NCBI GenBank assembly: GCA_030613045.1
Contig: JAUWMS010000007.1
Location: 1-15,293, forward strand
Direction: 5' to 3'
DNA from: Candidatus Latescibacterota bacterium
GTDB lineage: Bacteria > Latescibacterota > 4484-107
DNA length: 15,293 bases
Below are positions 11,125 through 12,390 of this stretch, in pieces. The notes under the pieces are model-generated. The model was not told where the DNA came from. It worked only from the letters and a program-made list of their open reading frames with translations, and ran no database searches. Position numbers and translations under genes: made by a program. Each line of letters begins with the position of its first letter. Within the stretch, counting starts at the first letter, position 1.

Positions 11125-11201
11125 TGGTGAGCTATACAGGACTCGAACCTGTGGCCTTTGGTTCCGGAGACCAACGCTCTATCCACCTGAGCTAATAGCC
11201 C
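11125..11201 (-). tRNA. tRNA-Arg (anticodon CCG), with encoded CCA
   Basis: The minus strand folds into a complete 77-nt cloverleaf. The acceptor is GGGCTAT/ATAGCTC (one G-U), the D stem GCTC/GAGC, and the anticodon stem TTGGT/ACCAA with loop CTCCGGA, giving anticodon CCG (reads CGG, Arg). The variable loop is 5 nt and the T arm ACAGG-TTCGAGT-CCTGT. Discriminator A is followed by a genome-encoded CCA. It is on the same strand as the small ribosomal protein gene upstream. Confidence 0.97.
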
Positions 11202-11818: not shown

Positions 11819-12094
11819 CTATTTTTCCACCTGTGCCCGAAATATCCGGGAAGGCACGAATACCGGCACCATCCGCTCTCCGATCTGCACGACCTCGTTC
11901 GTCCTGGGATTCCGGGCGGTCCTCGGCGCACGCCGGACGACCTTGAAGACCCCGAATCCCCGAATCTCAATCCGCTCTCCCTCCGCCAATGCCTCGCGGA
12001 TGCTATCCAATACTCCGTTTACGACCAATCCCACGTCGGTCTTCGTCATCCCCGTGGATTCCGAAATTCCGTTCACAATGTCCGCTTTCGTCAT
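11819..12094 (-). CDS. HU family DNA-binding protein
   Basis: The 91-residue protein is a normal-length HU/IHF-type histone-like protein. It has an N-terminal helical dimerisation half (MTKADIVNGISESTGMTKTDVGLVVNGVLDSI region). Then come the turn GERIEIRGFGVF (39-50) and a basic DNA-binding arm with RTARNPRTNE (58-67; Arg61-Asn62-Pro63 at the arm tip). The VPVFVPSRIFR end is typical of HU. It bends and compacts DNA as a dimer in the nucleoid. The ribosome site (AAAGGA, 8 nt before the ATG) is moderate. The upstream region on this strand contains the tandem nested hairpins at 12146-12277, which would form the mRNA leader if transcription starts before them. Whether it is HU or an IHF-like variant cannot be settled. 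Confidence 0.93.
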   Translation of the reverse strand: MTKADIVNGISESTGMTKTDVGLVVNGVLDSIREALAEGERIEIRGFGVFKVVRRAPRTARNPRTNEVVQIGERMVPVFVPSRIFRAQVEK

Positions 12095-12145: not shown

Positions 12146-12277
12146 GTCGATTCAGCCCAATAGGTCGAGGCAGTCCGATAAAAGGAGCCTCGACTAAAGG
12201 AGAATCGACTTGGTCGAGGCAGCCCAATAGGTCGGCACAGTCCAATAGAAGGAGTGCCGACTAGAAGGAGCCTCGAC
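12146..12277. repeat. Two tandem nested double hairpins with compensatory stem changes
   Basis: Unit 1 has outer stem GTCGATTC/GAATCGAC (12146-12153 with 12202-12209) and inner stem GTCGAGGC/GCCTCGAC (12164-12171 with 12187-12194). Unit 2 has outer stem GTCGAGGC/GCCTCGAC (12213-12220 with 12270-12277) and inner stem GTCGGCAC/GTGCCGAC (12231-12238 with 12254-12261). All four stems share GTCG/CGAC ends but differ inside, always with matching changes. The terminal loops are AGTCCGATAAAAGGA and AGTCCAATAGAAGGA. The outer linkers (AGCCCAATAG on the left, TAAAGGA or TAGAAGGA on the right) equal the same loop split by the inner hairpin, with TAG/TAA on both sides. The units are 64 and 65 bp, separated by TTG. 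Confidence 0.85.
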
Positions 12278-12390
12278 CTAATTGAACACTGAAAAACACC
12301 GAAATACACCGAAAGAACCCCAATATCCGGTTTTTCGATGTGGGACATGCAGGCTTTAGAACGCCCTCTTAGAGAGGCCACACACTTCTT

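Follow-up and report, generated by a model that had tools for sequence, protein, structure and literature searches.

Introduction

The small dispersed repeats of cyanobacteria, a subject connected with the name of Elhai et al. 2008, are reportedly very small mobile repeats in bacteria. For the hairpin described here, the nearest bacterial kinds are the REP and RPE palindromes. REP and REPIN sequences (GTAG) are dispersed palindromes of 20–40 nt which occur in genomes with Y1 transposases. The REP transposase of E. coli is described as cutting REP in its single-stranded form, at CT next to the hairpin (PMC8266576). For P. fluorescens the authors argue, in the portion of the text available, that the REP doublet is the mobile unit (PMC3116915). 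The CGTC REPs and the Rickettsia elements RPE-4 and RPE-6 have stems of 8–9 bp, are inserted into genes in frame and have no known dedicated transposase; the accessible text mentions insertion of REPs into other palindromes, but not self-nesting (PMC3733652).

The organelle palindromes of the green alga Volvox carteri are described as inserted into each other, which results in elaborate arrays. They have an average length of 50 nt and loops of usually 3–5 nt, and the available part of the article gives neither a fixed point of insertion nor empty sites or a net length (PMC2670323). Yeast mitochondrial GC clusters and sponge mitochondrial hairpins are small, have conserved stems and are treated as mobile, with the short flanking repeats AG or ACT for the GC clusters; the accessible parts of both articles describe no fixed self-loop target (PMC4478555, PMC2800124).

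The window analyzed here, i.e. the whole stretch of 15,293 nt, is contig C288 of a Latescibacteria genome (G000; assembly of 3.14 Mb in 580 contigs). It contains an array that probably consists of clustered copies of a miniature mobile element, which is non-autonomous, about 33 bp long and composed of a purine, a 31-nt hairpin and a pyrimidine. The behaviour is like that of a REP/RPE-type miniature mobile hairpin, although the element does not pass the tests that define these families. As with REPs, the palindrome is short, dispersed and present in many copies (54 covariance model matches at E ≤ 1 in G000, the weakest few being marginal). Insertion is seen for single units, in contrast to the doublet argued for in P. 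fluorescens; unlike the REPs, the hairpin nests in its own loop and has no linked transposase that could be found. The GTAG tag is absent in the 68 listed copies and outer hairpins, in which the stem G(T/G/C)(C/T)G starts directly after the flank. The CGTC tag, the loop of 4–5 nt and the CCA-like tail of the CGTC REPs were not found either; the loop has mostly 15 nt, and 13 nt in the GGCG units. The mitochondrial hairpins differ in sequence as well as in location.

An earlier note on this DNA knew no named repeat family of such recursive form. For the bacteria this agrees with the literature searched, mostly outside subscription journals, in which no bacterial family was recognised as nesting in its own loop; the accessible parts of PMC12306157 and PMC2229807 do not mention nesting. 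Beyond the bacteria, the Volvox palindromes within palindromes are a described case.

The Hairpin Array of the Window

The earlier note had described two tandem hairpins, each with a hairpin of the same family at the same loop position, and all four hairpins could be located between positions 12146 and 12277 (Table 1). In this 132-nt array six perfect inverted pairs of 8 bp were identified, whereas four were reached by 2 of 2,000 shuffles, in which the base counts alone were kept. Both inner units begin after AATAG, as had been noted; the proposed right boundary TARAAGGA does not fit the first outer loop, in which the right remnant is TAAAGGA (7 nt). The complete GCAC stem of inner unit 2 is the sole one in the 66 aligned rows. 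In the search of the window against Rfam at the gathering score, only a tRNA (11128–11201) was matched, and the hairpin has no Rfam family. From its sequence, the neighbour gene is presumed to encode an HU/IHF-type DNA-binding protein.

Table 1. Positions of the hairpin array and its neighbouring features in the window.
Feature	Position	Strand	Details
Neighbour gene	11819..12094	−	Array 51 bp upstream of the gene start
Outer hairpin 1, stem class ATTC	12146..12209	+	Arms GTCGATTC 12146–12153 / GAATCGAC 12202–12209; loop split by inner unit 1
Inner unit 1, class AGGC	12163..12195	+	G + 31-nt hairpin + T = 33 nt; model E 2.0e-8
Hairpin of inner unit 1	12164..12194		Arms GTCGAGGC 12164–12171 / GCCTCGAC 12187–12194
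TTG spacer	12210..12212	+	Tandem join of both outer hairpins
Outer hairpin 2, class AGGC	12213..12277	+	Arms GTCGAGGC 12213–12220 / GCCTCGAC 12270–12277; loop split by inner unit 2
Inner unit 2, class GCAC	12230..12262	+	G + 31-nt hairpin + T; model E 1.3e-7
Hairpin of inner unit 2	12231..12261		Arms GTCGGCAC 12231–12238 / GTGCCGAC 12254–12261; flanks exact TAG...TAG
Right flank	12278..12345	+	End of a different dispersed repeat (AATTGAACACYGAAAAACACCGAAA...); other copies have empty and single-hairpin states of the window context

The repeat on the right flank (window: 12280–12345; L178–L194) is a dispersed palindromic sequence, AATCGAACACCGAAAAACACTGAAA...TTTTCGGTGTTTTTCGGTGTTCG, which was found by pattern at 13 places in G000 and at 4 places in G001, the sister species. 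A separate dispersed repeat of approximately 120 nt (CCTCTCCTGGTTTCCTGGATTCCTGATAGAAAACACGCTCTG...GCCCGAAGGGCGCTAA) has at least 16 copies in G000 and G001 (L125, L127, L129, L131, L137–L146, L108 and L110).

Distribution of the Hairpin Family

The common unit is 31 nt long and consists of the 8-bp stem GTCGNNNN, the loop AGYCCRATARAAGGA and the matching arm N'N'N'N'CGAC. The GGCG units are a shorter sister form with the stem GGCGACAC. For the search of 60 genomes, a covariance model built on 15 units was used. At E ≤ 0.05, 51 copies were found in G000, 12 in G001, which is the one genome of the same genus, and none in the 58 others, which were sampled from the phylum. The array is therefore not a local duplication, the alternative raised in the earlier note. 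Of the pattern proposed there for a search of this genome and its relatives, the left half was matched exactly 38 times in G000 and 8 times in G001 (reversed control: 0 in both). The small hairpin is scattered through the genomes of two species of the same genus, and its copies were found between genes, inside genes and in the loops of earlier copies.

With the strict pattern, eight stretches were obtained from the genome collection. Seven belong to the sister species and one to a Clostridia MAG (L060, JAGADB010000128.1: 1925–1955), which is the one strict-pattern match outside the genus. The same pattern had no match in the viral collection, on which ground a phage-borne repeat was rejected. 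Six other genomes of the phylum have one match each to a loose pattern, but these matches are not recovered with the covariance model at E ≤ 0.05; the match in G011 (L055) has no second arm after it. A loop-only pattern with one mismatch yielded no more clear members by eye in G000, the surplus matches being within the range of the reversed control.

Insertion Into New Sites and Into Genes

The element was inserted into new sites, and a net gain of 33 nt (31 + 2) is common to the six clean sites L031, L043, L019, L052, L033 and L034. Empty counterparts, which the earlier note had suggested to look for, could be identified in three cases. For L031 the empty counterpart is located in the sister species (149 bp, 96% identical), and L043 has 16 empty paralogues (14 in G000, 2 in G001). 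L019 has one empty counterpart (L132, with one base unresolved), and no further empty copy of its context was found. That the hairpin is a mobile element is regarded as almost certain. Other comparisons gave different lengths or no clean junction: the gap was 36–37 columns instead of 33 for L021 against three diverged paralogues (L134–L136) and 35 columns instead of 33, with an unclear junction, for L024 against L133, and for L044 and L023 the aligner returned no clean junction.

Genes are entered as well, in frame in several cases and with a stop in one. The proteins of L052 and L033, which from their sequences we take to be a Gfo/Idh-type oxidoreductase and an amidase, carry an exact in-frame insertion of 11 residues (VDSPSIGLNRP), which is absent in all 11 aligned homologues of each protein; out of the matches found, the alignment covered the loci that the search returned. 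The in-frame insertion described for the CGTC REPs and RPEs is thus seen against homologues in L052 and L033, and in L031 it is indicated by the empty sister site and the open frame. L034 is the counter-case, in which the hairpin brings a stop; the frame (130 + 284 codons) is open again once exactly 33 nt are taken out, but stays closed with 31, 32 or 34 nt.

In a frame test on 10 copies, the reading frames with the hairpin were compared to those with different lengths removed. L031, L033, L052 and L064 have a long open frame in the presence of the hairpin as well as after removal of 33 nt; in the first three, other removal lengths also keep some frame open. For L038, L069, L022, L021 and L037 no frame exceeded the set length limit. 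The in-frame insertions are a bacterial case, outside Rickettsia, of palindromes writing new peptide into proteins. Further proteins were presumed from their sequences to be BNR/sialidase-like, SWIM-type and IS3 proteins. Two loci (L069: 1062–1092; L068: 474–534) contain copies inside apparent parts of IS3-family transposases, presumed from the motif FYNTERPHQSLG; insertion-sequence DNA would therefore also be a target.

Nested and Tandem Copies

Eight nested units were found in seven outer hairpins at five loci, namely two in the window, three in L027 and the remaining ones in L041, L046 and L066. Under random placement, with the assumption of independent insertions, 0.029 nested units are expected. 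The resulting probability is 1e-17 for eight nested units and 2.8e-8 if just four are independent. Six of the eight units immediately follow ATAR in the outer loop. Of the units of L027, the GGCG unit is located behind another nested unit within one loop, and a third unit was found in the loop of the GGCG unit itself, after AAAAG. Copies in the loops of earlier copies and directly beside them occur far beyond chance, and repeated insertion of the element into its own loops is very probable.

Removal of the purine, hairpin and pyrimidine restores an exact known un-nested loop in three of the seven outer hairpins (window outer 1, L027 outer and L027 GGCG); the restored loop is one base too short in L041, L046 and L066. 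Window outer 1 without 12163–12195 has AGCCCAATAAAAGGA, the loop of the un-nested L023, L034, L043, L044 and L050, among others. Without 12230–12262, the loop of window outer 2 exceeds the longest un-nested loop of its kind by one base.

The insertion of hairpins into loops of their own family, as claimed in the earlier note, is borne out by sibling loci, which were found in the empty, the single and the nested state. At the 3′ end of one gene, L133, L147 and L148 are empty, L024, L026 and the degenerate L072 contain a single copy, L046 and L066 are nested and L040 is a tandem of three; of the empty loci, only L133 retains both flanks well. The window context, represented by copies of the right-flank repeat with a similar left flank, is empty in L178, L179, L181 and L184. 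In L050 of the sister species it contains a single un-nested ATTC hairpin, the loop of which equals that of window outer 1 without inner unit 1. The sibling loci are paralogues with short shared flanks and therefore show states, not dated events. The family provides a very small mobile element with empty-site evidence, for which the empty, single and nested states are found side by side in one genus.

The start-to-start distance at eight neighbour joins is 33 nt in five (L030, L035, L040, L041 and L067), 34 nt in two (L018 and L040) and 32 nt in one (L068, with a 30-nt unit). The tandem spacers at loci other than the window are TG, CA or CAA, and the stem class can differ between neighbours (L035, L046 and the window). 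In L035 and L064 a second right half (TAAAGAAGAATCGAC and TAAAGGAGCATCGAC, respectively) without a left half is located after the hairpin. These halves may be remnants of lost outer hairpins or partial duplications.

End Bases, Flanking Repeats and Alternative Explanations

In 59 of the 66 rows, a set which was compiled with a local script and contains some chance hairpins, a purine precedes the hairpin and a pyrimidine follows it (G..T in 32, A..C in 20 and A..T in 7 rows). The simplest unit is therefore a purine, 31 nt and a pyrimidine. After normalisation to G..T ends, the base before the purine was T in 15 and A in 7 of 22 contexts. These contexts represent 47 copies, either single or first in a tandem, which were grouped by the similarity of their flanks with one representative each; nested, later tandem and contig-end copies were excluded. 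The nested insertions lack the preference for T seen at the other sites, an argument against one simple rule for all targets.

The TAG or TAA on both sides of the inner units had been likened to a 3-bp target-site duplication. At the second nest of the window a duplication of 2–3 bp fits exactly; this is the only place with an exact 3-bp TAG flank repeat, and TG..TG is found in L031. A 3-bp TAR duplication as the general rule was rejected, since the clean sites gain 33 nt and the left copy of L043 differs from the empty site (CTCTGCT|TATC to CTG..TTA). The appearance of a TAG/TAA duplication can arise from G..T ends placed between TA and A (TA|A), and most of it can be explained by the element's own end bases beside TA|A. 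In L053 (G001: C155, 976–1010, minus strand; loop AGTCCAATAGATAGAAGGA) TAGA is doubled at the nesting position, which could be the footprint of a departed inner unit or a slip.

The flanks bear directly on the possibility that the hairpin is a miniature inverted-repeat element moved in double-stranded form by a DDE transposase, with a target duplication of 2–3 bp (YNR or TAR). The exact repeats at the second window nest and L031, several flanks of the type TAA..TAG or TAG..TAA, and the net gain of 33 nt, which also equals 31 nt plus a 2-bp duplication, would agree with such an origin. However, the left copy often mismatches the known empty site, as in L043, and the exact duplication of constant length that marks a MITE of a DDE insertion sequence was not found at L043, L019, L052 and L033. 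In addition, a length of 31 bp is very short for an element of a DDE transposase. No longer element with the same ends was present among the fetched half-unit matches (580 contigs, 78% complete assembly), only one of which, at a contig end, was without a nearby second arm. We consider movement by a DDE transposase unlikely.

The nests could also be one or two old composites that were spread by duplication or gene conversion, with hairpin-in-hairpin insertion as a rare event. Copies are often located within larger dispersed repeats, and the nests of L046 and L066, both with a GGCG unit within the same host repeat, may go back to a single event that was duplicated together with this repeat. As a general explanation this is improbable, because several stem classes (AGGC, GCAC, TCAC/ACAC, GGCG), different loops and both orientations are found among the inner units (inverted in L041 and for the GGCG unit of L027, forward in L046 and L066), and the outer classes vary as well (ATTC, AGGC, GGCG). 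Hairpins are hot spots for template switching, and the hybrid stem of L018 and the repeated right halves of L035 and L064 resemble products of switching or slippage at a replicating hairpin. A nested array built locally in this way, without any mobile element, is nevertheless extremely improbable in view of the dispersed copies, the empty counterparts, the insertions in unrelated genes and the different inner and outer stems of the window. A transcribed hairpin that is reverse-transcribed or reverse-spliced into DNA would be compatible with a structure-dependent spread, a rising copy number and the lack of a regular duplication, and according to the accessible text an RNA route was proposed for the yeast mitochondrial GC clusters (PMC4478555). 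Nothing specific points to RNA here, and this origin is rated as highly improbable.

Stem Pairing and Loop Variants

In an alignment of 53 distinct rows, made with the covariance model, which favours pairing, 96.1% of the cells are paired and both-side changes are found in 5 of the 8 pairs. Four of five pairing measures were reached by none of 500 shuffles, a result that copying kinship alone can also give without selection; the fifth, the number of further pair types, was reached by 125 of 500. The earlier note was right that stem pairing is kept and that the changes are paired. Its further idea that pairing is regenerated is too strong, because nearly all stem variation falls into a few discrete classes: ATTC (30 of the 66 rows), AGGC (21), ACAC (4) and rarer ones with 1–3 rows each.

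All four main combinations of stem class and loop variant are present (ATTC-CAG 11, ATTC-TGA 5, AGGC-CAG 3, AGGC-TGA 11). The stems therefore look as if they were exchanged between copies as whole units. Changes in one arm, as in the L018 hybrid, L027 (TCAC/GTGT) and L041 (GGCGACAC/GTGCCGCC), indicate that stepwise change via mismatches occurs too.

The loop variant and the end bases tend to co-occur. Loop bases 11 and 14 (Y and R) are complementary to end bases 1 and 33, with mostly C/A or T/A loops for G..T ends and mostly T/G loops for A..C ends. This association could be due to plain shared descent of two subfamilies. It is doubtful that the loop serves as a guide, in which case the element would read its own cut and target sites from the loop, prefer its own loop for landing and tolerate any pairing stem.

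Proposed Movement as a Folded Single Strand and Y1 Genes

The reading preferred here is that the element would move as a folded single strand. A cut next to the hairpin would be followed by rejoining at a short target, and no true target-site duplication would be made. The enzyme would act in trans and might be, for example, a Y1 (HUH) transposase of the IS200/IS605/REP-transposase kind. The element's own end would recreate the target and so give rise to tandem copies, and nested copies would result from the extruded loop, which would be exposed single-stranded DNA with a TA|R site. As the hairpin would be required by the enzyme, the pairing of the stem would be preserved. A landing site in the element's own loop, if fixed and strongly preferred, would be a natural assay of the movement of REP-like palindromes as folded single strands.

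The conserved hairpin, the lack of a regular duplication, the tandem growth at the element's own end and the loop preference fit Y1 single-strand mobility. The cutting by the E. coli REP transposase is an analogy for the Latescibacteria hairpin, not evidence. The proposal that a Y1 enzyme drives the movement is a tentative guess. Loops were found in both orientations relative to the G..T ends, and it is not obvious that a strand-specific enzyme would permit this. In a similar context rich in purines and pyrimidines (CTCACTTG..TTCTCAC), the loop orientation is opposite between two sets of loci, as if flipped between the arms (L016, L030, L042, L045, L048, L049, L051, L054, L073 and L076 versus L020, L028, L032 and L036).

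Genes with Y1_Tnp above the cut-off were identified in 18 of the 31 genomes searched, with five in G000 and one, which has a stop, in G001. The other 16 genomes have Y1 genes but no hairpin, and three genomes of the same class have neither a Y1_Tnp gene nor the hairpin. By the covariance model, the hairpin is absent from the contigs of all six Y1 genes in G000 and G001. None of the six genes is flanked by the hairpin, as a REP transposase gene would be by its repeat; one flank is cut by a contig end. Two of the Y1 genes, L171: 1247–1759 (G000: C489) and L176: 1351–1881 on the reverse strand (G001: C43), are located between short hairpins of the GTCCCGTTAGGGAC type, some of which are followed by GGATATTTGTAG. 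The Y1 gene and these hairpins look like a separate pair of REP and transposase. The G001 copy (L176) contains an in-frame TAG.
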